Below, one piece after another: positions 1 to 27,055 of a DNA stretch of 29,480 nucleotides; position 1 is the stretch's first letter; every line of letters starts with the position of its first letter. Location: IMG/VR virus record IMGVR_UViG_3300037504_000626, positions 1 through 29,480 of that record; one strand, written 5' to 3'. This DNA comes from a virus. Made by a program: the position numbers and the translations under genes. A model generated the notes under the pieces. The model searched no databases. It saw only the letters and a program-made list of their open reading frames with translations, and had not been told where the DNA came from.

Positions 1-1
1 T

Positions 2-118
2 GGAAGGTGCGACTATTGCAAACAAAAAAGGGAGGTAACCGAGCCAAGAGACTTTGGCATCAAGGAAAAGGTCACCCCCGAAGAGTTTGATAATTTTCTT
101 AAAAATTTAATGAATTAG
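2..118 (+). CDS. C-terminal fragment of a Cys-pair protein (partial at window edge)
   Basis: An open frame enters from the left edge and stops with TAG at 116-118, giving the last 38 residues of a protein. It begins GRCDYCKQKREV, so one CxxC pair is visible; the other half of a possible zinc site would lie upstream. The rest is charged and ends in a short helix-like segment (EEFDNFLKNLMN). It is followed 13 bases later by the next gene on the same strand. The frame is preferred over the other two because they close within the first 100 bases or give no sensible protein. No function can be assigned from this fragment. Confidence 0.55.
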   Translation, partial: GRCDYCKQKREVTEPRDFGIKEKVTPEEFDNFLKNLMN

Positions 119-131
119 AAACAACAAAAAA

Positions 132-428
132 ATGAACGAAGAACGCTGGGACTATATCGCATCCATGCTTTACTCTTACTTAGAAAAAGAGGATGCGGAT
201 AAAATTTTAAAAGAAATTAAGGGGTGTGTTAAAAAGGAAGGTGGAAAAATGAAAAAAAGAATTCTTTGCCCTAAGTGCGAAGGGAACGGTAGCCACGAAG
301 TTCTTTTTTCTGGTGAGATGTTTTTAGTAACCGCCGGTATTCCTATGATAAGAAAATCCGTTGAATGCAAGGTTTGCGAAGGAAAGGGATATCTTGAGGA
401 GGATTGCAAGCTTGACAAAATAAGGTGA
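132..428 (+). CDS. Small protein with two DnaJ-type Cys pairs
   Basis: A 98-residue protein with an N-terminal charged helical segment (residues 1-40) and a C-terminal zinc-binding part. CPKCEGNG at residues 46-53 and CKVCEGKG at 79-86 resemble the CxxCxGxG repeats of the DnaJ central zinc domain. Such isolated pairs are common in small phage proteins, where the role is unknown. The first ATG follows an A-run without a Shine-Dalgarno. An internal ATG at 249 is preceded by GGAAGGTGG and would give a 59-residue protein that keeps both Cys pairs, so it is a real alternative start. Promoter P1 overlaps the last codons. Confidence 0.65.
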   Translation: MNEERWDYIASMLYSYLEKEDADKILKEIKGCVKKEGGKMKKRILCPKCEGNGSHEVLFSGEMFLVTAGIPMIRKSVECKVCEGKGYLEEDCKLDKIR

Positions 429-439
429 AAAGGTAAAAT
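412..439 (+). promoter_or_regulatory. Promoter P1 (TTGACA-16-TAAAAT)
   Basis: TTGACA at 412-417 and TAAAAT at 434-439 are separated by 16 bases, close to the bacterial sigma-70 consensus. The spacer ends in GAAAAGG, giving the block GAAAAGGTAAAAT that recurs at two promoters downstream (768-789 and 1372-1393). The -35 box lies inside the end of the preceding gene. Predicted +1 is near 446, leaving a leader of about 33 bases before the gene at 479. Confidence 0.75.
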
Positions 440-446
440 AGGCTTA

Positions 447-476
447 GTCAAGCCAAAAAGTCAAGGGCAAGTCAAG
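447..476 (+). repeat. Three direct GTCAAG repeats in the P1 leader
   Basis: GTCAAG occurs at 447-452, 460-465 and 471-476, spaced 13 and 11 bases start to start, about one helical turn. The array covers almost the whole leader between P1 and the ATG at 479. GGCTT/AAGCC at 441-454 could also form a five-pair hairpin around the first repeat. This could be an operator or an RNA-level binding array, or chance in a short A-rich leader. Confidence 0.35.
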
Positions 477-478
477 TT

Positions 479-739
479 ATGAAAAACCCAAAAGAGTCAA
501 AGTTAAGCGGGGAAAATTTAGATTTGTATTGTGCGATAATTGATCATGTTAATGGCCTTAAAAAAACACTAGAGGGCAGGGTGTTAACTATTGCCGAAGC
601 CTCTACCCAAGACCCAGAACAAAGAGCCTCCCTGAAGTCACTTGTGCGTGAGGCCATCTGGATGGAAACCCACTGGAGCAGTAACCTCCTAGAAATGGTC
701 GCGGAGCATTTAAAAATACCCAAGGACCAGGAAGAATAA
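479..739 (+). CDS. Hypothetical 86-residue helical protein
   Basis: An 86-residue, mostly helical and mildly acidic protein of a type I do not recognise. It has no Cys, no membrane segment and no known motif. Tryptophans sit in the IWMETHWSSNLLEM stretch near the C-terminus. It is the first gene behind promoter P1 and has no Shine-Dalgarno; its ATG follows GTCAAGTT. It lies directly upstream of the first promoter-RNA-initiator module, so a role in early regulation or replication is possible, from position only. Confidence 0.65.
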   Translation: MKNPKESKLSGENLDLYCAIIDHVNGLKKTLEGRVLTIAEASTQDPEQRASLKSLVREAIWMETHWSSNLLEMVAEHLKIPKDQEE

Positions 740-761
740 TTTATTAGTTAATTTTAAGCCC

Positions 762-789
762 TTGACTTTTTAGGCTGAAAAGGTAAAAT
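762..789 (+). promoter_or_regulatory. Promoter P2 (TTGACT-16-TAAAAT)
   Basis: TTGACT at 762-767 and TAAAAT at 784-789, spacer 16, with the same GAAAAGGTAAAAT block as P1 and nearly as P3. Counting 6-7 bases past the -10 box puts +1 at 796, exactly the first base of the 5' strand of the structured RNA that follows. Confidence 0.75.
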
Positions 790-795
790 AAAAAT

Positions 796-918
796 GCAAG
801 CTAAACTCATCACAAAAATAATTTTAGAGCCTTTAGTCTTGGCGGTTTTGCAGGCAAAATCGCCTCGCATCAGGGAAGTGATGAGCCCTGGTTTGCGCCG
901 TCAAGACTAAGGGCTTTT
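796..918 (+). ncRNA. Structured pseudoknotted RNA 1 (promoter to terminator)
   Basis: This is a 123-base transcript candidate between promoter P2 and a T-run. Pairings seen in the sequence: a 796-801/891-896 (6 pairs, one G-U); b CTCATCAC 806-813 with GTGATGAG 878-885 (8 perfect pairs), the latter in the loop of hairpin T, CAGGG 871-875/CCCTG 886-890; hairpin B 841-850/855-864 (10 pairs, loop 851-854); and stem A 828-845/898-915 (18 pairs, two G-U), followed by TTTT. Helices a and b cross stem A, and GGCGG 841-845 is shared by stem A and hairpin B, so the RNA is either a complex pseudoknot or switches between folds. A paralogue with the same layout lies at 1399-1522. I recognise no known RNA family. 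The function could be a cis antiterminator or attenuator, or a separate small RNA. Confidence 0.75.
828..918 (+). terminator. Long-stem intrinsic terminator of RNA 1
   Basis: The 18-pair stem A (828-845/898-915), with GGGCT followed by TTTTAATTTT, gives a GC-closed stem plus U-run just 15 bases before the ATG at 933. Its apical part carries hairpin B and the pseudoknot strands. Transcription of the downstream gene from P2 must therefore read through it. Confidence 0.6.
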
Positions 919-932
919 AATTTTAAAAAAAC

Positions 933-1349
933 ATGAAAGAAAAACCAAGTTATTACGCAATCTTAACCGCTGAAGTAAGGTATGCAAAAAACCTCACGAT
1001 GTTTCAAAAAATTCTCTATGCTGAGATGACGGCGCTAGCAGAGAAAGAGGGGTTTTGTTGGGCTAGCAATAAATATTTTGCCGAGCTTTACGATAAATCA
1101 GAAAAATATATCAGCAGCACAATTTCTGATATGAACAAAAAAGGATACATAGACACATTTATAAGCCAAAAAGACGGGATAACCAGAAAGATATACATTG
1201 GAGCTACCCATAAAAATCTGGATAGCTACCCAGAAAAATCTGGGGAGACCTACCCAGAAAAACCTGAACATAATACTACAAGTACTAATACTAAAAAAGA
1301 ACGGGAACCCTCTTACGAGGATTCCCTTACCACTTATAAGACAAAGTAA
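933..1349 (+). CDS. Winged-helix replication initiator-like protein, short paralogue
   Basis: A 138-residue protein. Residues 1-90 look like the winged-helix domain found at the N-terminus of phage replisome organisers and plasmid-type initiators: the stretch MFQKILYAEMTALAEKEGF is followed by an ASNKYFAELY recognition region and an IYIG wing. Residues 91-138 are a polar linker that ends SYEDSLTTYKTK, just where the longer neighbour at 1536 has SYEASLTTYKTK in mid-protein. The protein thus appears to be the initiator N-terminus without the C-terminal domain. Its ATG has no Shine-Dalgarno and lies 15 bases past the RNA 1 terminator. It probably binds DNA near the origin; it could regulate or compete with the full-length paralogue. 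Confidence 0.75.
   Translation: MKEKPSYYAILTAEVRYAKNLTMFQKILYAEMTALAEKEGFCWASNKYFAELYDKSEKYISSTISDMNKKGYIDTFISQKDGITRKIYIGATHKNLDSYPEKSGETYPEKPEHNTTSTNTKKEREPSYEDSLTTYKTK
1303..1345 (+). repeat. Conserved palindrome plus tail, copy 1
   Basis: GGGAA 1303-1307 and CCTC 1309-1312 pair with GAGG 1317-1320 and TTCCC 1322-1326 around the loop TTAC; C1308/A1321 is a mismatch. It is followed by CTTACCACTTATAAGACAAA (1326-1345). The second copy (1937-1978) keeps CCTC-TTAC-GAGG, the mismatch position and the tail, while the outer stem changes on both sides. The element is at the 3' end of the short initiator gene, 20 bases before promoter P3. It could be an initiator-binding site or an RNA hairpin. 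Confidence 0.6.
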
Positions 1350-1365
1350 AAAAGATTATCGAGAC

Positions 1366-1393
1366 TTGACAAAATAAAACGAAAAGGTAAGAT
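1366..1393 (+). promoter_or_regulatory. Promoter P3 (TTGACA-16-TAAGAT)
   Basis: TTGACA at 1366-1371 and TAAGAT at 1388-1393 with a 16-base spacer ending in GAAAAGG, like P1 and P2. The first ten bases, TTGACAAAAT, match P1 exactly. Predicted +1 is 1399-1400, the first base of the 5' strand of structured RNA 2. Confidence 0.75.
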
Positions 1394-1398
1394 GGAAA

Positions 1399-1522
1399 TG
1401 CAACAAATTAGGATTCAAACTATAAAAAAAGACCTATTCAACTGGCGGTTTGCTCGCAAATCGCCGAGCATAGAGGGTTTGAATCCCCCTTGTTGCACCG
1501 TCAGTTGAGTGGGTCTTTTTTT
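1399..1522 (+). ncRNA. Structured pseudoknotted RNA 2 (paralogue of RNA 1)
   Basis: Same order of elements as RNA 1: a TGCAACAA 1399-1406 with TTGTTGCA 1490-1497 (7-8 pairs); b GGATTCAAAC 1411-1420 with GTTTGAATCC 1477-1486 (10 perfect pairs), the latter inside a loop closed by AGG/CCT 1474-1476/1488-1490; hairpin B 1444-1452/1457-1465; and stem A 1429-1448/1498-1517 (20 pairs, three G-U), followed by seven or more T. Sequence shared with RNA 1 is mostly in hairpin B (GGCGGTTT, GCAAA, TCGCC), GCAT, AGGG and CCGTCA. Helices a, b and the base of stem A have different bases but keep pairing, which supports a selected RNA fold. The 3' part resembles a tRNA T-arm and acceptor (TTTGAAT loop, GCAACAA/TTGTTGC, ACCG), but no D or anticodon arm fits. 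Confidence 0.75.
1429..1522 (+). terminator. Long-stem intrinsic terminator of RNA 2
   Basis: The stem of 20 pairs (1429-1448/1498-1517) runs straight into a T-run at 1516-1522. The next ATG (1536) is 14 bases beyond it, as in RNA 1. The stem occupies the region of an upstream in-frame start at 1509, which argues for 1536 as the true start of the initiator gene. Confidence 0.65.
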
Positions 1523-1535
1523 AATACAAAAAAAC

Positions 1536-2369
1536 ATGGAAAAAACACTAAGAAAAGAGGGGGTACCGTTTGTGCAGGTCGCAAACGAAGTACTAAATAG
1601 TGAAACTTTAACATTCAAAGCCAAAGGCCTTTATGCGTTTATTGCATCAAAGCCGGACGGGTGGCAATTCTCCATTTACCGGATAGCGCTACAAACAAAG
1701 GAGGGGAGAGACTCAGTTTCAGCGGGATTAAAAGAGTTAGAAGATGAGGGATGGCTAGTTAGGATGCGGAAAAATGACGGAAGAGTGGAGTATGTTTTAT
1801 ATAATTCCATAAAACCAGCATCAAAAAACCCCACAACTAAACCAAAACCGGAAAATCCCACTGTGGGAAAATCCCAAAGTGGGAAAATCCAACCAGTAAG
1901 TAATAAAGAGAATATAGCAATAAAGAAGAGTATAGACGACACCTCTTACGAGGCGTCGCTTACCACTTATAAGACAAAACAAAAAATCTATAAACAAAGA
2001 GGATTAAATTATAAACCTAAGAAGTCTCGTTTTATAGAAGTAGGAAAGGTAGTTGAAGAGTTCCGCGCCGCCGCCAGCGCCAGAGGATTCAACCTCCTAA
2101 AGTCGGACGGCCAACGGAATAAAAGAATCCGAGGACAGATTGAGGCGCTTTTGATAGCGGGTAAAGACCTTAAAGGCCTTATAAATTGGTGGTTTAGAGG
2201 AGAAGGTGATTATTGTGGGTATGCTCCCGAAAACCTTTTCACAGAAAGGACTGTCGAAACCTACCACGTAAAAAATAAAAAAAAGGAAGTTAAGGACACA
2301 ACACCAGACTTCCAAAAATTAAAAGAGAAATGGAAATCACAAAACAAGAACCAGAGAAAAAGGTCTTAG
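1536..2369 (+). CDS. Replication initiator / replisome organiser-like protein
   Basis: 277 residues from ATG 1536. Residues 1-90 fit the winged-helix domain of phage and plasmid initiators (pattern VPFVQVANEVL, LTFKAKGLYAFI, DGWQFSIYRIA, EGRDSVSAGLKELEDEGWLV). A polar Pro/Lys/Asn linker follows, and the SYEASLTTYKTK segment is shared with the shorter paralogue upstream. The C-terminal part (roughly residues 165-250) is a helical domain with GLINWWFRGEGDYCGYAPENLF, which looks like a DnaD-like or helicase-loading tail. It overlaps the helicase gene by 40 bases, so the two are probably co-translated. An in-frame upstream start (1509) lies within the terminator stem and is rejected. The expected role is origin binding and recruitment of the helicase. 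Confidence 0.8.
   Translation: MEKTLRKEGVPFVQVANEVLNSETLTFKAKGLYAFIASKPDGWQFSIYRIALQTKEGRDSVSAGLKELEDEGWLVRMRKNDGRVEYVLYNSIKPASKNPTTKPKPENPTVGKSQSGKIQPVSNKENIAIKKSIDDTSYEASLTTYKTKQKIYKQRGLNYKPKKSRFIEVGKVVEEFRAAASARGFNLLKSDGQRNKRIRGQIEALLIAGKDLKGLINWWFRGEGDYCGYAPENLFTERTVETYHVKNKKKEVKDTTPDFQKLKEKWKSQNKNQRKRS
1937..1978 (+). repeat. Conserved palindrome plus tail, copy 2
   Basis: CGAC 1937-1940 and CCTC 1942-1945 pair with GAGG 1950-1953 and GTCG 1955-1958 around TTAC; A1941/C1954 is a mismatch. The tail CTTACCACTTATAAGACAAA (1959-1978) is identical to copy 1. The outer stem differs from copy 1 but still pairs. It lies in the linker-coding part of the initiator gene, a common place for phage origins. 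Confidence 0.6.
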
Positions 2370-3598
2370 CCACCTTATATCTCGATCCCAATAAAATATC
2401 CGGCCTGAAACTAAAACCGGAACACTTCACAACAGAAGAACACGGCAACGTGTACGACACAATAAGACAAGGATACCTTAACGGGCTTAAAAAAGATGAC
2501 ATAAGAGAAGATGTCCGCAAACTTGGCTTCACCTCAAGCTACTTCACCGAGGCGTCCATGATAGACTCCGACTTTCTTTTCAGTTGTGACAAGGTCTTGA
2601 AAAATTATCACTACAGGGAATTGCACCGCTCCTTATCAGAATCTCTCCAGGAAATTGCCACCTCTCCAAGAGATATTCAGGAGGTAACTAAAAAAATACA
2701 AATAAAGCTCCTAGAAAACCAACTTGAAAATAAGGAAACCGAAACCCCAAGCCAAATTCTAAAAGAAATTGAAAAAGATCAATTAGAGTATTATAATAAA
2801 AAAGCTCAAGGGTTGACTTGCCTTGGAATCCCAACCGGCTTTCAGTTCCTGGATGATGCTATCGACGGTCTAAGGCCCGGCCACCTCTGGCTAATAGGTG
2901 GCTACACCGGCACCGGGAAATCAACCTTCATGCTCCAAATTCTGAAAAACATTCTAGAAAACTCTTATAAAGTATCCTTATACTCCCTAGAAATGGGAGG
3001 TAAAGACATAATAACAAGGATACTAGGGATGGAATCAGGTCAAAATGGCCAACACCTAATTAAGGATGTTGATGATGACTTTTTTCATAGGGAATACGAA
3101 AAGGCAGCAGAAAGAATCAACGCCTACCAGCTTTCCATTCACACAAAAAAAAGAGATATTGAACAAATAGCCCTCTCGATGACCGAAGAAGCCGAAAAGG
3201 GAGTTGACGCCTTTGCTCTAGATTATGCGCAAAACCTTGACTATGGAAAAAAGTCAGAATATGAAGCTCTTACTTACGCCGCTAATGTTCTTCAGGACGT
3301 TGCCAAGCTAACGAAAAAACCAATAATCCTTCTTTCTCAGGTGAATAACGAATCGGTAAAAAACAAATCTGAGGTTATGGGCTATAAAGGAACTGGCGCC
3401 CTTCCTCAAGTTGCTGATTTAGCCCTTGAACTTGCCAGAACAGAAACCCAAGAAGAACTTGAAGAAAAAAAGGCCTATGGAAATTACAATTATGAAGTGA
3501 TGGCCAAAATTAGGAAAAATAAACACGGTATAACCTTTAATAAACTACTAGACTTCGATCCAGTAACAGGACAATACAATGAAACATTCCCAAACTAA
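2330..3598 (+). CDS. dnaB: DnaB-type replicative helicase
   Basis: 422 residues, near the usual 420-470 for phage DnaB-like helicases. The N-terminal helical domain (about 1-110) matches the DnaB N-domain in style (EKKVLATLYLDPNK, LKPEHFTTEEHGNVYDTI). The RecA-like ATPase domain starts around residue 165: GIPTGFQFLDDAIDGL, then Walker A GYTGTGKST at 191-199, the segment YSLEMGG and Walker B FALDYAQ with D298. LLSQVNNES and RKNKHG near the end fit the sensor and arginine-finger region. It would unwind DNA at the phage fork, loaded by the initiator whose gene it overlaps by 40 bases. No primase domain is present. A phage recombination ATPase is less likely given the N-domain and the neighbours. 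Confidence 0.92.
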   Translation: MEITKQEPEKKVLATLYLDPNKISGLKLKPEHFTTEEHGNVYDTIRQGYLNGLKKDDIREDVRKLGFTSSYFTEASMIDSDFLFSCDKVLKNYHYRELHRSLSESLQEIATSPRDIQEVTKKIQIKLLENQLENKETETPSQILKEIEKDQLEYYNKKAQGLTCLGIPTGFQFLDDAIDGLRPGHLWLIGGYTGTGKSTFMLQILKNILENSYKVSLYSLEMGGKDIITRILGMESGQNGQHLIKDVDDDFFHREYEKAAERINAYQLSIHTKKRDIEQIALSMTEEAEKGVDAFALDYAQNLDYGKKSEYEALTYAANVLQDVAKLTKKPIILLSQVNNESVKNKSEVMGYKGTGALPQVADLALELARTETQEELEEKKAYGNYNYEVMAKIRKNKHGITFNKLLDFDPVTGQYNETFPN

Positions 3599-3624
3599 CC
3601 GTTTTGTTTGTTGGCTAGAAGCTT

Positions 3625-3864
3625 ATGAAAAAACTAAAAGAGTGGCACAAAGCAGTTTGCGAAAAGGCAAACTATAGATGCCAAAAATGCAGAAAAGATT
3701 TTAGTTATCCTTGCTACTTTGACGGTGACGTTAACCAATACGTAACGGGCCATCATGTTAAATCGCAAAAGGCTCACCCAGAACTTAAATTTGAGGTAAG
3801 CAATGGGATTTGTTTGTGTTTGGAATGCCACAACGGCGTTCATTCTGGCAACTTGACATTATAA
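3625..3864 (+). CDS. HNH endonuclease-like protein
   Basis: 79 residues with the HNH layout: CQKC at residues 19-22, a GHHVKSQ segment with the catalytic-type His pair, an Asn in VSNGICLC, and CLECHNGVH near the end. The two Cys pairs would hold a structural zinc and the HH/N/H set would bind the catalytic metal. It is short but complete for a minimal HNH fold. It stands alone after the helicase, 26 bases on, and far from the terminase, so a packaging nuclease role is not indicated by position. It could be a free-standing homing-type nuclease or a DNA-processing enzyme. Promoter P4 follows directly. Confidence 0.8.
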   Translation: MKKLKEWHKAVCEKANYRCQKCRKDFSYPCYFDGDVNQYVTGHHVKSQKAHPELKFEVSNGICLCLECHNGVHSGNLTL

Positions 3865-3883
3865 AATACACACAACGAAAGAC

Positions 3884-3911
3884 TTGACATTTTTTTTCAA
3901 TCTGCTACACT
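3884..3911 (+). promoter_or_regulatory. Promoter P4 (TTGACA-16-TACACT)
   Basis: TTGACA at 3884-3889 and TACACT at 3906-3911, spacer 16 with a T-tract next to the -35 box. The spacer lacks the GAAAAGG block of P1-P3. A second TTGACATTA at 3853-3861 has no matching -10. Predicted +1 is near 3918, at the start of a pseudoknot stem. Confidence 0.65.
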
Positions 3912-3917
3912 AATTAA

Positions 3918-3975
3918 AAAGCAGGGGTGCATTAACGAGCGCTCTATTCATCCCCCTGCTTAGAGCGCTTTTTAA
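3918..3975 (+). ncRNA. H-type pseudoknot RNA 3 ending in a U-run
   Basis: Stem 1 AAGCAGGGG 3919-3927 pairs with CCCCTGCTT 3953-3961 (9 perfect pairs). Loop bases AGCGCTCT 3938-3945 pair with AGAGCGCT 3962-3969 (8 perfect pairs) immediately 3' of stem 1, so both stems can stack coaxially. Five T follow at 3969-3973. Loop 1 is 10 bases and loop 3 is 7. The GAGCGCTC core is also self-complementary, so loop-loop dimers are possible. As with RNAs 1 and 2, it starts at a predicted +1 and ends just before a gene (ATG 3985). It shows no sequence similarity to them. Confidence 0.6.
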
Positions 3976-3984
3976 TTTAAAACT

Positions 3985-4170
3985 ATGAACCAAAGAGACC
4001 TCTATATTCAAGAGAGAGAACTGGAAATCTTGATGGAAAGAGAGTTGATATTTGGAGGCAAGCTGTACAGCCCCCACCAAAAAAAGCATTACCTAGAACA
4101 ATTAAAAAAAAGAAATGACAACACTAATCAAGATTCTATTCAGCGCACTGAGCGCTTGGCTAATAATTAA
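3985..4170 (+). CDS. Hypothetical 61-residue charged protein
   Basis: A 61-residue, strongly charged helical protein (YIQERELEILMERELIF, then a His/Lys-rich part). I do not recognise it. It is the first gene behind P4 and RNA 3, without a Shine-Dalgarno. Its 3' end overlaps the small membrane-protein gene at 4115 by 56 bases. It may form a coiled coil; nothing points to an enzyme. Confidence 0.6.
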   Translation: MNQRDLYIQERELEILMERELIFGGKLYSPHQKKHYLEQLKKRNDNTNQDSIQRTERLANN

Positions 4171-4530: not shown

Positions 4531-5088
4531 ATGAAAGTATATATTATTAAGTCTGATAAAGATTTAGAGAAGTATAGAGATGATTTTGGTTACCACATAA
4601 AAGGTAATGCAAAATTTGAGTATTCTGCTGATTTTGAGGGTAGATTAAAAGTTGATGGTTATTTACATATCGAAGCAGGTGGGTATATCGAAGTAGGTGG
4701 GTCTATCGAAGCAGGTGGGTATATCGAAGTAGGTGGGTCTATCGAAGCAGGTGAGTATATCGAAGCAGGTGGGTATATCAAAGTAGGTGGGCATATTAAA
4801 GCAGGTAGGTCTATCAAAGCAGGTTGGTCTATTAAAGCAGGCGGGTCTATTAAAGCAGATGAGCATATTAAAGTAGGTGGGTCTATCGAAGCAGGTGGGT
4901 ATATCAAAGTAGGTGGGTCTATCGAAGCAGGTGGGTCTATTAAAGCAGGTTGGTCTATTAAAGCAGGTTGGTCTATTAAAGCAGATGAGCATATTAAAGT
5001 AGGTGAGCATATCGAAGCAGGTGGGTATATCAAAGCAGGTGGTTCTATCGAAGCAACAAAAGGTATTTGTGCAAAGAATGAAATTTAA
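4531..5088 (+). CDS. Hexapeptide-repeat (beta-solenoid) protein
   Basis: 185 residues. Residues 1-46 are a non-repeat cap (MKVYIIKSDKDLEKYRDD). Residues 47-178 are 22 perfect-length hexapeptides of the form I-[EK]-[AV]-G-x-[YSH], close to the [LIV]-G-x4 repeat that builds left-handed beta-helices in acyltransferases and the polymer-forming folds of bactofilin-like proteins. Isoleucine would face the core and Glu/Lys the surface, with the charged position changing between E-rich and K-rich runs. There are no catalytic His residues as in acyltransferases, so a structural or binding role is likelier. A short tail ICAKNEI ends it. AAGG precedes the ATG. Confidence 0.75.
   Translation: MKVYIIKSDKDLEKYRDDFGYHIKGNAKFEYSADFEGRLKVDGYLHIEAGGYIEVGGSIEAGGYIEVGGSIEAGEYIEAGGYIKVGGHIKAGRSIKAGWSIKAGGSIKADEHIKVGGSIEAGGYIKVGGSIEAGGSIKAGWSIKAGWSIKADEHIKVGEHIEAGGYIKAGGSIEATKGICAKNEI
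4669..5064 (+). repeat. 18-bp tandem repeat array, 22 units, in coding DNA
   Basis: Twenty-two in-frame 18-base units of the form ATC/ATT-GAA/AAA-GCA/GTA-GGT-GGG-TCT/TAT encode the hexapeptide solenoid. Some neighbouring units are identical, and a larger block (IKADEHIKVG) occurs twice, which suggests growth by duplication. Copy number is likely to vary between related phages. The array also leaves long false reading frames open on the opposite strand. Confidence 0.9.
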
Positions 5089-22797: not shown

Positions 22798-23148
22798 ATG
22801 AGAAGAATCCCACCCCTAAGACGAAAGCCTTCAGTGCCGGAGGCTAGCGCGCAAAAAATAAATAGAACAGACATGCCACCCTCTGTCACCCCCAAACAAA
22901 ACCTGCCCCAAGCTCCACCTAAGGGGAGTGGTGATGAGATCGGTAAAGGCCAATCACCGGTAATTCCTGAGCCCGGGCCTAAAAACCTGCCTGATGACGT
23001 CCTTAAAAAGAAAATCAAGGAAAACTACATGGCAGGGCTTGACTGGGCTGAGAACGCTCTGGTAATGCGCCGAGCCGGTGTTGTTCCTAAGCCAGGGAGT
23101 GAATGGGATAAATTATTTAGGAAATTATACGACCTAGATTATGAATAA
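22798..23148 (+). CDS. Proline-rich hypothetical virion protein
   Basis: 116 residues. Residues 1-70 are Pro/Lys-rich and likely disordered (RRIPPLRRKPSVPEASAQKI). The C-terminal part GLDWAENALVMRRAGVVPKP and WDKLFRKLYDLDYE is a compact helical tail. It overlaps the giant protein gene by 8 bases. Probably a partner of the ejection proteins. Confidence 0.55.
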   Translation: MRRIPPLRRKPSVPEASAQKINRTDMPPSVTPKQNLPQAPPKGSGDEIGKGQSPVIPEPGPKNLPDDVLKKKIKENYMAGLDWAENALVMRRAGVVPKPGSEWDKLFRKLYDLDYE

Positions 23149-26100
23149 TTGGGAAATAACAACACCAGAAGAAATAAGCTCCCTTAGTCTTGATGTGCTA
23201 ACAGAGAAGATGTTGCGTAAAAAAAGGCAAGCGAAAGAAATGTCCGTTGAGGAAGAACAGGTCGAGGAAAAACAGGAAGTCAACCAAACCCCGGTTGCTG
23301 AAAAACAGAAAGTCGACCAAATGCGGACAGAGGAAGCAAAGACTGCCGCTGCTCAAGAAGAACAAGCTTTTAAGCAATACACCCTAGCTAAAGGTGACAC
23401 TGTTTGGGGGGAATTGCGGGAAGATAAGGGACAGGAAGGCGCCTCCGAACTAGTGAGGAATTACGAAGAGACCGCCAGCGAAAGACTCGTGGACGCGGGG
23501 GCTTTTGAAACACAAAATGAGGCTAAAAAATACTTGGATTATTCCTTCAGGAGGATGGCAATTGGAGCCGGGTTTGAGGCAAGTCCTGAACAGATACGTG
23601 TTGAGGATTTTTTCAGCCCTGAAAAAATTGAGCAATACAAACAAAAGAAACAGTCTCGCAAAGACTATGTACTTGGTGAGGATATAGTTAAGAAACTGGA
23701 AGAATCCGGAGACCTTCCCAAAACGGAGCTACCGGAAAAATACCTAAACGCTAAAGGAGAGGAGCGCTCAATTGACTCCGTGGTTGCCAACGAGCTGGGG
23801 TACATCCCTGAGTCAATGGGGGGCAAAGGACCTCAATTAACCGAAGAGCAAAAAAAAGAAGCGGCAAAAACTGCTTCTAGGGAACGATTCAAGATGAAAC
23901 TTGACGGTGAAAACCAAACCACCGAAGAACAGAAAGAAGCGATTGAGGGAAAATCAGTGGGTGAAAAAGCAGCTGAGTTTTTGGTGGGTGGAATCCAAGC
24001 TTACCGAGAGGCGGGGGAGGCGGCCGTTAAATCTAAAGAGGGAGACGAGAAACTAACCCAACTAGAGAAAGAAATTGACACCATCCGTAAAGAATACAAA
24101 GGAGCGGACCTTGAAAAAAAGAACCAATTGGAAAAAGATTACCTAAGGCTATCCGCCAAAAAGGCGGAAGTGCTTGGTGAGTGGGAGGTGGCCAATACCT
24201 ATTTAGCTAAAATGAGCGACAAACAAGCGCTAGGTCTCTCTTTGGGGGCTGCTTCTAACATTGCCATGGTTGCGCCGGTCGCCACCGCGGGCTCTACAGC
24301 CGCTAAAGCTGCTCAAGGAGCGACGGGGAGAGTTCTTGGCAGGCAAATAGCTAAGGGTGTGGCGGGAGCTGCCGCGGAGGGCGCCATTGGCGGAGCGGGA
24401 GAATCTGCCGCTGCTGCCATGGCTCAAGACGCTTCAACAGGAGAAATCGCAAAGTCCGCCGCGGTTGGTGGTGTGATAGGTACGGGACTAGGGATTACCC
24501 TAGGCGCGGGGGGAGCTCTAACCGGTAAACTTGTTAAAAAATTCAAAAAAGGAGTTCCGGACGAAGCTGCTGAGGCTATTGCTAGTAAAGCGAACGCCAA
24601 AGCGGAAGAAATGAGAGCTGAAGGAGCCTCTAACCAAGAAATCGCCGAGGAGGTGGAGAGAGTAATTAAGGAAACCGACCCCGAAAGAGCGAAACTACTC
24701 GAAGCAAAAAGGAAAGGAGACAGGAAAAAGGTGGTAGAACTGGCAGAAAAAACTGACAAAATAGACGAAAAAGAAACTTTGCAGCGCCTAAAGAAAGACG
24801 CCCAAAAAGACCCTGAGGCGAGGAAGGCTGTAGCTGAGAGAGTTTTTGGTGAGGAACCAAAACCCGACCCTAAAAAAGAGGCTATTCAACGAGTATTAAC
24901 GGATGAACCCCTAACCCCGGAAGGTAAAAAGAGATTTGAGGCGGAAGGACTGGAACCTGATGAGGAAACTATTAAGCAATTAGTTGAAACAAATCCGGAA
25001 AAAGCCAAAAAACTTCTCAATGAGGAAACCTACCAAAAATACACCACAGAAGCGCCTCAGGCCGGAAAGCTTACACCAGAGGCTGATGGGATAAAAATAG
25101 GTGATGAAACCGACCGAGGGAGGGTGGAGGACGTATTCACGCTACAAAGTGGGTTACAGCAATATAAGATTAACGGGGAGTGGATAAATGAAAGGCTAGT
25201 TAATAAAGTTGACGCTCCTGTGGGGCTCACGGAAGAAGCAGCGGTAAAGCAAATCAGAAAGTTCGGGGAGGATGAAGTTGAAAAACTTAAAGAAGCTGGG
25301 AAGGGGGACTTAATTGATGATGACGGGTACATTACTCTCTACCACGGGGGGCGTTTTAAGGGCGACAAAATAAAGGCCGATGACGACGGGGTATTCTTTC
25401 TTACTGACAACGCCTCAGAGGCTGCTGAATACGCCAATCTTCCGAGAAACAAAGGGAAGGGAGGGGTTACCGAGATTAAAGTTAGGCCTGAGTTTGTGAG
25501 GTTTAACGAAGGCTCTGGAGAGTTTGAAATATCAACCAATCTAGTTAAAAAAGGAGACCGCTTTGAGGTTGAAAATCCAATAGAGGTAGCAAATAAAATT
25601 AAGGAGGCCCAGTCAGCCGAAAAACAACCTAGAAGAGCAACACAAGAAGCCAAGCAACCAACACCAGAACAGGCGACAAAACCAGCCAAAGGGGAATTAG
25701 ATCTAGCCCAAGAAGCTAAGAAGTATAAGAGTGTGGAGGAGTTTGTAGAGAGTGTTAGAAAAAACGACGCAGTGACGCCCACCAACAAAGTAGTGGCTTC
25801 AAAGAGCGGAGAGCTTCCCGGAAAAATTAGAATGGGGGAGGTTTTAGAACTGAAGGGTTTGAGGGAAAAGTTCCCCGAGATTGAAGACATTCAATTAAAG
25901 CCGAGTGGCGCCGTGAAGAATGCAGCAGTAGACAAGGCTCAAAAGGATTCTATGCGCATAAACAAAAAATATTTTGAGAAAGTTACTAGCGAGAGCGCCC
26001 AAAAAGAGTACAACTCATTTGTAGAGAGTGTTACGAAAAAATACGGAGAAGATGTTACTCTTGAAAAACTCTCTCCGGCTGAAAAAGCTAGATTTGAAGA

Positions 26101-27055
26101 ATTAGAAGCCAACCTTTCTTCCCCTGGTGGTTACAAACTCAAAGAGGACGCGATTCCCGTTATTATCCACGAGCTGGAGCATATCAAACAAAACATAACC
26201 ACCCCCGGAGGTGGGACAACCTATAAGAGTGTTGCAGACCTAAAGGAAAAATACGGAGAAAAATGGGAGAGTTTTGGGAGGGATTCCGCCGGCGGAAGAG
26301 TGAAGTATAATGAGGGTCGAAACATGCCAGACCATGAAGTAGAGGCGTTTTTGGCGATGGATAGATACAAAACCAAATCAGAACTCAAAGAAATCTACAA
26401 CAAAGCCCAAAAACCCAAGCCGAAAGTAGAAACTAAACAACCAACACCAGAAACCAAGCCATTCAAGCCAGAAGTATCCCCAGAAAAACAACCCCAGCTC
26501 GGAGAGTACAAAGGCCCAGGTAAACAAGTGACATCTAAAGTAATTGAAAGAGAGTTTGGCGAGGATATTGCTAAAGAGATGACCTTTTCTAGGTATAACC
26601 TAAAAGAAGGAGCCGACCAAGCCGCTAAAGTAATCAATCAAGACCCCAAGAAAGCGTATAATATCGCCCTAGGACTTGAGACAACTGGAGAGGACGCTGC
26701 CGATGTAATGATCACAAACGAACTTGTCAACAAAGCCAACCCCTACAAAAATAAAGATGGAGACGCCGAGGTTTGGAAAAACCTAGTCACTTCAAACGCT
26801 CGAAGAGGGAGAGCTTTCGGACAAGGGCTAAATGCCATGAAGAGCTCTGTTGATGGCAACAGTGCAGAAGTTTACTTGAAGAGGGTTGTAGATGAACGCC
26901 TCAAAAGAATTAAACCACCCAAAGGCTTTAAAGATGCTACAGAATACATTAATAATCAATCTAAGAATCTCACTCAGAAGGTCCGGAAAGTTAAAAAACA
27001 AGTCGGAATTGAGGATGTCCAGTCCTTCTTTGATAAGATAACTTGTAAAGTATGA
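23141..27055 (+). CDS. Giant ejection protein, polyvalent type, with a metallopeptidase motif
   Basis: 1304 residues. Around 79-95 QYTLAKGDTVWGELRED is weakly LysM-like. Residues about 362-467 are Ala/Gly-rich and hydrophobic (GLSLGAASNIAMVAPVATAG), which may insert in membrane. Residues about 730-790 (LYHGG at 733-737, FFLTDN at 752-757, AAEYA at 761-765) suggest an ADP-ribosyltransferase-like fold, tentatively. H1010-E-L-E-H1014 in VIIHELEHIKQ with E1066 in PDHEVEAFL is a gluzincin-type zinc peptidase motif. Pro-rich linkers (KQPTPE) separate the parts. This mosaic is that of the phage polyvalent proteins injected with DNA. The stop overlaps the next start by ATGA. Confidence 0.7.
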   Translation: MNNWEITTPEEISSLSLDVLTEKMLRKKRQAKEMSVEEEQVEEKQEVNQTPVAEKQKVDQMRTEEAKTAAAQEEQAFKQYTLAKGDTVWGELREDKGQEGASELVRNYEETASERLVDAGAFETQNEAKKYLDYSFRRMAIGAGFEASPEQIRVEDFFSPEKIEQYKQKKQSRKDYVLGEDIVKKLEESGDLPKTELPEKYLNAKGEERSIDSVVANELGYIPESMGGKGPQLTEEQKKEAAKTASRERFKMKLDGENQTTEEQKEAIEGKSVGEKAAEFLVGGIQAYREAGEAAVKSKEGDEKLTQLEKEIDTIRKEYKGADLEKKNQLEKDYLRLSAKKAEVLGEWEVANTYLAKMSDKQALGLSLGAASNIAMVAPVATAGSTAAKAAQGATGRVLGRQIAKGVAGAAAEGAIGGAGESAAAAMAQDASTGEIAKSAAVGGVIGTGLGITLGAGGALTGKLVKKFKKGVPDEAAEAIASKANAKAEEMRAEGASNQEIAEEVERVIKETDPERAKLLEAKRKGDRKKVVELAEKTDKIDEKETLQRLKKDAQKDPEARKAVAERVFGEEPKPDPKKEAIQRVLTDEPLTPEGKKRFEAEGLEPDEETIKQLVETNPEKAKKLLNEETYQKYTTEAPQAGKLTPEADGIKIGDETDRGRVEDVFTLQSGLQQYKINGEWINERLVNKVDAPVGLTEEAAVKQIRKFGEDEVEKLKEAGKGDLIDDDGYITLYHGGRFKGDKIKADDDGVFFLTDNASEAAEYANLPRNKGKGGVTEIKVRPEFVRFNEGSGEFEISTNLVKKGDRFEVENPIEVANKIKEAQSAEKQPRRATQEAKQPTPEQATKPAKGELDLAQEAKKYKSVEEFVESVRKNDAVTPTNKVVASKSGELPGKIRMGEVLELKGLREKFPEIEDIQLKPSGAVKNAAVDKAQKDSMRINKKYFEKVTSESAQKEYNSFVESVTKKYGEDVTLEKLSPAEKARFEELEANLSSPGGYKLKEDAIPVIIHELEHIKQNITTPGGGTTYKSVADLKEKYGEKWESFGRDSAGGRVKYNEGRNMPDHEVEAFLAMDRYKTKSELKEIYNKAQKPKPKVETKQPTPETKPFKPEVSPEKQPQLGEYKGPGKQVTSKVIEREFGEDIAKEMTFSRYNLKEGADQAAKVINQDPKKAYNIALGLETTGEDAADVMITNELVNKANPYKNKDGDAEVWKNLVTSNARRGRAFGQGLNAMKSSVDGNSAEVYLKRVVDERLKRIKPPKGFKDATEYINNQSKNLTQKVRKVKKQVGIEDVQSFFDKITCKV

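Follow-up and report, generated by a model that had tools for sequence, protein, structure and literature searches.

Here, we present a computational analysis of structured RNAs in the virus record IMGVR_UViG_3300037504_000626 from IMG/VR (positions 1 to 29,480; this 29,480-base stretch is referred to as the window). The window encodes a terminase, an SU10-like portal protein, and a DnaB-like helicase, and carries, at 762-924 and 1366-1523, a repeated unit in which a promoter is followed by a structured RNA, a terminator, and a gene for an HTH_36 replication initiation protein (Rep). RNA1 (796-924) lies between a promoter at 762-789 (TTGACT-16-TAAAAT) and rep1 (933-1349), and RNA2 (1400-1523) lies between a promoter at 1366-1393 (TTGACA-16-TAAGAT) and rep2 (1536-2369). 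Promoters were identified in a consensus scan; that of RNA1 resembles 411-439 and 1365-1393. An original prediction, made by inspection of the sequence alone, had placed two RNAs here, each behind its own promoter and each ending in a terminator before a replication gene. By re-deriving the coordinates, we arrived at the same arrangement, with the first helix strand of each RNA starting 7 nucleotides (nt) 3' of its −10 element and the two rep genes starting with ATG at 933 and 1536. The prediction implied that there are only two such RNAs; we found an additional, smaller member, RNA3, at 3919-3974. Altogether, the structure of these RNAs in the window and the preservation of their topology in the best relatives are well supported.

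RNA1 and RNA2 have the same order of parts, i.e., the 5' strands of helices a and b, the 5' strand of stem A (A5), hairpin B, hairpin T, the 3' strand of helix a (a'), the 3' strand of stem A (A3), and a U-run. The 3' strand of helix b (b') sits in the loop of hairpin T, and a' comes after hairpin T and abuts A3. In RNA1, helix a pairs GCAAGC (796-801) with GTTTGC (891-896) and can be extended to 795-803 pairing with 889-897; helix b pairs CTCATCAC (806-813) with GTGATGAG (878-885) in the loop of hairpin T (871-890); and stem A consists of 826-846 and 897-917, the latter continuing into a U-rich tail to ~924. In RNA2, helix a pairs GCAACAA (1400-1406) with TTGTTGC (1490-1496), helix b pairs GGATTCAAAC (1411-1420) with GTTTGAATCC (1477-1486), and stem A consists of 1426-1449 and 1497-1520 and is followed by the U-run to 1523. 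The T stem of RNA2 (1473-1489, ends approximate) is weak, has one A-C mismatch, and overlaps b' with its ends. Hairpin B (841-864 in RNA1 and 1444-1465 in RNA2) begins with GGCGGT, and these six bases are also the top of stem A; because both structures use them, hairpin B and the complete stem A compete. The two RNAs have the promoter, the start ATGCAA, hairpin B, and the motif CCGTCA in common and, judged from these similarities, look like paralogues.

The predicted nested folds of RNA1 and RNA2 have energies with z-scores of −5.4 and −7.9, respectively. In a test in which the terminator was kept, the leader was shuffled, and the pairing of helices a and b was compared, none of 2000 shuffles matched the real leader for RNA1, and the same was true for RNA2 and for the RNA1 of the related phage L002 described below. 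The claim that helices a and b pair by means of different bases in RNA1 and RNA2 is borne out. RNA3 has helix a only. Its promoter (3884-3911; TTGACA-16-TACACT) is followed by a 9-bp helix a between AAGCAGGGG (3919-3927) and CCCCTGCTT (3953-3961), which lies in the loop of a 10-bp terminator made of GAGCGCTCTA (3937-3946) and the 3' strand that, with the U-run, occupies 3961-3974; the last T of CCCCTGCTT is the first base of that 3' strand. A small open reading frame (ORF; 61 amino acids [aa]) starts with ATG at 3985 and extends to 4170. The helix a pairing of RNA3 was reached by 7 of 5000 leader shuffles. In all three cases, promoter, RNA, terminator, and ATG are on the plus strand, and the gap from U-run to ATG is 9-13 nt, which leaves no room for a further promoter before the gene. 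A consensus scan of 1-4000 gave no minus-strand promoter in or just past RNA1, RNA2, or RNA3.

Two other possible identities of RNA1 and RNA2 were considered and rejected. Frames of 38 codons (794-910) and 36 codons (1398-1508) have an ATG that overlaps the predicted +1 and end within A3, but a leader peptide of this kind is not conserved; the corresponding frames stop after 3 codons in the RNA1 of L002 and after 7 codons in L080. The tRNA-like look attributed to RNA2 in the original prediction proved superficial, as ARAGORN found no tRNA and the tRNA-Sec model gave 15.2 bits against a cut-off of 47. Separately, A3 of RNA1 and the adjoining tail (901-922) are 82% complementary over 22 nt (13 nt exact) to 23172-23193, at the start of a 1304-aa ORF (23141-27055); this may reflect pairing in trans or chance.

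The most informative relative is the phage L002, in which Rep1 is 97% identical to that of the window. RNA2 is kept in L002 at 131 of 133 positions, and RNA3 is also kept. By contrast, alignment of the two RNA1s gave 73 matches, while 50 shuffled copies gave an average of 71.3; i.e., there is no sequence similarity, even though the flanks of the RNA1 site are identical at 271 of 280 and 408 of 417 positions. Nevertheless, the RNA1 of L002 has the same topology, with helix a formed by CTGGAAG and CTTCCAG, helix b formed by TCAACGAAA and, in the T loop, TTTCGTTGA, a stem A of at least 20 bp, and a U-run; it has no hairpin B. Within 412-478, the window has a similar promoter (TTGACA-16-TAAAAT) followed by a small hairpin, GGCTTAGTCAAGCC, and a gene at 479-739, without a knotted terminator. 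Because the L002 counterpart of this promoter directly drives the unrelated RNA1, a swap or insertion of a promoter-RNA cassette seems to have taken place.

More distant relatives have the same plan. In L044, in which Rep is 38% identical over residues 5-91, helix a pairs TTGCTT with AAGCAA and helix b pairs TAATCACA with TGTGATTA. Scans and inspection by eye added L066, L080, L079, L138, L230, L220, and L120, which vary in quality; the leader-shuffle p was 0.0055 for L044 and 0.005 for L230. The original prediction staked the structure on homologues retaining helices a and b. Both are kept in L002 RNA1, L044, L138/L230/L220, and L120, while others have one helix only, i.e., helix a in L169, L162, and L136/L141 and helix b in L069. 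Most relatives precede HTH_36 replication genes; however, the L120 element precedes a gene for an AntA/KilAC antirepressor (AntA, 1.5e-24; ANT, 6.8e-12), and those of L136/L141 and L220 precede other ORFs. Thus, contrary to what had been implied, the device is not tied to replication. In L220 (1982-2465), an RNA of the L138 type is followed, in place of a rep gene, by a 115-aa ORF without a Pfam match, which looks like a GIY-YIG nuclease, as if an endonuclease gene had landed between the RNA and rep. In L069 (2780-2910), a second complementary strand with a T-run (GGCAAGC TTTTT), located past the first U-run, could pair with strand b, so that there could be two successive terminators.

Covariation was assessed in the homologous trio L138/L230/L220, leaving out helix b, which has register shifts in L220. 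Both sides changed in 6 of 31 pairs, and 98.9% of the cells pair; this covariation was equalled by 1 of 500 column shuffles, and each of six slid controls had 0 double changes. In the pair L138/L230, double changes occur in 3 of the 7 pairs of helix b and in one pair of helix a; because 30 of 500 shuffles reached the score of the whole structure, this pair alone is weak. We also built a covariance model from RNA1, RNA2, and L002 RNA2, the approach suggested with the original prediction. Among 26 sources, this search succeeded in part: It recovered its own members and L066 (E 0.0013) but missed L002 RNA1 and L044 on the plus strand and gave weak mirror matches on the minus strand. In agreement with the prediction that no known family has this shape, no Rfam 15 family matched the window at the gathering score, and 17 related loci yielded one tRNA only, elsewhere in L069. 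DNA similarity to named phages was detected neither for 700-1620 of the window nor for L120; the L044 RNA, L220, and L141 gave short matches only, covering 9-31% of the query.

Descriptor scans, in which the parts are required in order, gave a similar picture. Locus-wide, RNA1, RNA2, both L002 RNAs, and L044 scored 86.5-107; the next real match scored 69, and the best shuffled score was 74 (three shuffled sets; also two-fold shuffles). Seven records of other phages, lambda and HK022 among them (262 kb in total), served as controls and gave 62.5 at best. In 1.75 Mb of partly overlapping loci, a descriptor for long loops found 7 elements (6 different RNAs) at a score of at least 65, compared with 0 in two shuffled sets, and 17 at a score of at least 60, compared with 2; 5 of these 17 are minus-strand images of plus-strand elements. 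A descriptor for short loops found 6 distinct elements in the same sequence, with those of L136 and L141 being homologous; an ORF lies 15-28 nt downstream of 5 of the 6. Twice the length of shuffled sequence gave 3, none of which precedes an ORF. Scans of genome contigs were negative: the first gave no relative, and of the 11 loci from the second, none scored higher than the best shuffled sequence. In the rep or antirepressor regions of ten phage records, 8 of the 10 lacked a hairpin reaching the set strength within 60 nt. A single one of these records yielded a candidate, and a weak one: the cultured Tenacibaculum phage Gundel_1 (L268:760-886), which has an 8-bp pairing between leader and loop (GCTCTCAC/GTGAGAGC) before an antirepressor gene, with a p of 0.014 among 11 loci tested (the ten records and L120).

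The rep genes themselves contain iteron-like repeats, at ~1202-1262 in rep1 (spacing 22-24 bp) and ~1850-1890 in rep2 (spacing 16 bp), and this small phage may possibly have two in-gene origins of the lambda O type; the lambda O gene, as annotated, likewise carries its iterons within the gene. Closely spaced in-gene repeats are present in 11 of 13 rep genes examined. A contig labelled as a Nanoarchaeota metagenome-assembled genome (L144, 11.5 kb) carries a rep gene with a 51%-identical segment and is perhaps a misbinned phage contig. Elsewhere in the window, a 185-aa ORF (4531-5088) has ~20 copies of a 6-residue repeat (GGYIEV/GGSIEA-like); by its look, the product is probably a beta-helical, bactofilin-like protein.

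How might such an RNA act? We tentatively propose, with slightly less than even confidence, that each element is a cis-acting transcription attenuator in the leader of a phage gene. We infer that the transcript is made, that the knot lowers rather than raises termination, and that the purpose is metering. Predicted folds are in line with this order of events. When the RNA was cut just past a', the best fold contained helices a and b in RNA1, RNA2, L002 RNA1, L044, L080, and L230 and helix a only in L066; cut before A3, L120 was predicted to form both helices and RNA3 to form helix a, its sole leader helix. Overall, helix a was predicted before A3 in 9 of 10 RNAs tested. At full length, the predicted nested fold of RNA1, RNA2, RNA3, and L120 is the terminator. 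These predictions, in which energies ignore pseudoknot penalties and nested folding cannot display both states together, point to two states that arise one after the other. Apart from one T in RNA3, no base of stem A also belongs to helix a or b; in RNA1 and RNA2, 6 nt of stem A are part of hairpin B as well. The original prediction offered an attenuator that switches between stem A and the pseudoknot; among the roles it listed, an attenuator fits best, but base sharing, which involves hairpin B alone, would not be the basis of the switch.

According to this model, transcription would begin at or beside strand a. As b' and then a' emerge, they would pair with the leader, thereby enclosing A5 in a closed loop. 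A3, which is made last, would then have to wind around A5 to build the long terminator stem. Because a' abuts A3 and A5 is held at both ends, free winding of stem A would require helices a and b, and in RNA1 and RNA2 also hairpin B, to open first. An intact knot would delay closure of the long stem and let the polymerase continue into the gene; with the knot opened or not formed at all, stem A would close over the U-run and end transcription some 10-15 nt upstream of the start codon. In this view, the knot would be an antiterminator that acts against the terminator through its shape and not through bases in common, which would explain why the bases change freely while the pairing stays. Because of the repeats inside the rep genes, read-through would control the supply of initiator together with transcription through a likely origin, and we suggest that metering both is the purpose of the element.

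Several observations weigh against this proposal. The fold predicted for L138 cut before A3 lacks both helix a and helix b, and that of RNA3 truncated within a' (at 3957) lacks helix a. L162 and Gundel_1 have no clear U-run, and the leader-shuffle p is weak for several distant members, L066 (0.057), L080 (0.048), L079 (0.081), L069 (0.10), and L061 (0.15); moreover, 3 of 9 sites labelled negative before the test also had p <0.05. At the lowest threshold, the descriptor gave 688 real and 522 shuffled matches. An ORF begins within 70 nt after 26 of 44 ordinary long stems and, about as often, after 15 of 23 knotted ones, so that a nearby gene is not in itself evidence. Upstream sequence was sufficient for 153 distinct rep homologue starts; at 120 of these, the 75 nt examined contain no long stem with a T-run, suggesting that the module is carried by some phages and is not a fixed part of the gene; among the other 33, 3 have too short a leader, and p was ≤0.05 in 13 of the 30 testable rows, two of which are the same RNA. 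Finally, because stem A has no bases in common with helices a and b, all of them could be present together in the finished RNA, and the knot might aid the terminator.

This last point leads to an explanation that we consider quite unlikely, i.e., that the leader-loop helices join A5 and A3 across a loop of 15-54 nt and so help termination, the element being a strong terminator or insulator that shields the gene from transcription arriving from upstream. The long stem A with its large loop, the possible stacking of a' on the abutting A3, and the mirror matches by which several elements also score as terminators on the opposite strand are compatible with it. However, each element in the window has a promoter directly upstream, so that an insulator would silence its own promoter, and RNA3 would be strained, since 9 nt (3928-3936) would, judging from the coordinates, have to span ~19 bp if both helices stack. 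Coexistence of all helices as a pseudoknot would equally suit a stable stand-alone small RNA that resists nucleases, with its 5' end locked in helix a and its 3' end in the terminator, and that acts in trans as a decoy, an antisense RNA, or a protein-binding RNA, while leaky readthrough serves the downstream gene; we regard this as unlikely, although helix a begins close to or at the predicted +1, the U-run marks the end of the RNA, and the window has three full units from promoter to terminator. Elsewhere in the window, RNA1 and RNA2 have 9 complementary 10-mers each, above the mean of 4.1 for 100 random segments but below their maximum of 15, and most of them fall in stem A, hairpin B, or A/T runs rather than in a free loop. 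Moreover, the lack of sequence conservation makes a fixed trans target or partner unlikely, and the placement right before start codons would be unexplained.

Binding of the pseudoknot by Rep or a host protein, with feedback on expression, would suit the location before replication genes, and pseudoknot leaders are known operators, as in the gene 32 leader of T4. Nevertheless, we find this very unlikely: the Rep1 proteins of the window and L002 are 97% identical while their RNA1s are unrelated, so that only the shape could be recognised, and similar devices precede an antirepressor gene and other genes. It is highly unlikely that the element is a DNA-level feature, e.g., an origin or recombination structure, or a chance resemblance; the in-gene repeats are a few hundred bases away, but promoter, U-run, and strand direction suit an RNA, and the shuffles and covariation speak against chance. 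Equally unlikely is a put-like action, with RNA polymerase modified so that antitermination is processive, a role offered in the original prediction that nothing beyond position supports. The put RNAs of HK022, according to PMC9378689, are ~70 nt long, have two stem-loops and shared sequence, and bind polymerase. The RNAs described here resemble them as structured phage RNAs near a promoter that, as proposed here, affect termination, put RNAs lying downstream of an early promoter. The action of put is on far-downstream terminators, by way of the zinc-binding domain of the polymerase. Unlike the two stem-loops of put, which have no terminator of their own, the knotted RNAs differ in topology and end in a terminator, and their sequence is unconserved between RNA1 and L002 RNA1.

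Among known systems, the rep attenuators of pT181 and pIP501 have a leader and an intrinsic terminator directly before the initiator gene and thereby set the amount of initiator, by means of antiterminator and terminator alternatives that share bases and are set by a counter-transcribed antisense RNA. The elements described here are similar in that a leader with an intrinsic terminator precedes a replication initiator gene. As in an attenuator, RNA1 to RNA3 have promoter, leader, intrinsic terminator, and start codon in this order with no promoter in between (based on sequence and the consensus scan), and an earlier alternative fold is predicted to yield to the terminator. Unlike in pT181 and pIP501, the alternative fold of helices a and b is not built on bases of the terminator, and there is no sign of an antisense promoter in the scanned part of the minus strand. 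A temporal order similar to that proposed here is found in the fluoride riboswitch, in which, according to PMC11077080, a pseudoknot forms during transcription and the intrinsic terminator comes later. However, the aptamers of riboswitches are conserved in sequence and recognise a ligand, while here the topology alone is kept, making a conserved ligand pocket unlikely; no ligand-binding sequence is conserved, and L002 has an unrelated RNA1 sequence at the same site.

The C4 antisense RNA (RF01695), according to PMC12197685, acts on an antirepressor gene via complementary blocks, pairs with the region of the ribosome-binding site in the ant mRNA, and is the basis of P1/P7 heteroimmunity. As in C4, the knotted terminator of L120 adjoins an antirepressor gene, while the elements of the window are followed by two rep genes and a small ORF; unlike in C4, the complementary blocks pair inside the same leader. 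Membership in the C4 family was rejected, as the RF01695 model matched 0 of 11 phage records at a cut-off of 45 bits, with P1 as a positive control at 68.8 bits, and no descriptor score above 45 was obtained in the P1 c4 region. In 5.39 million open-licence papers, possible names for such a terminator gave no match, and none of the matches listed, judged by title and opening of the abstract, describes this arrangement. For the swapped cassette, C4 is nonetheless the nearest idea, because c4 underlies P1/P7 heteroimmunity. Each version of RNA1, that of the window and that of L002, pairs only with itself, while the flanking genes are ~97% identical. We speculate that the elements could be self-recognising modules, in which the finished or trimmed RNA captures the a-b leader of transcripts of the same type, blocks the knot, and forces termination. 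The outcome would be negative feedback on replication together with a heteroimmunity code, similar to c4 or plasmid incompatibility RNAs, with one RNA as both sensor and terminator in a topology-only device that spans unrelated phage lineages and genes. Taken as a whole, this extension is rather improbable.

Searches of the Rfam type miss a regulatory RNA of which the topology alone is kept, and the covariance model based on the window accordingly found L066 alone among the other members. If the knot blocks the terminator by shape, this would be antitermination without shared bases, ligand, or protein, and the approach used here would be a route to a hidden class of leaders located upstream of replication and antirepressor genes in phages. 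Moreover, the cassette with swapped sequence in two close relatives makes a role in specificity or immunity directly testable.

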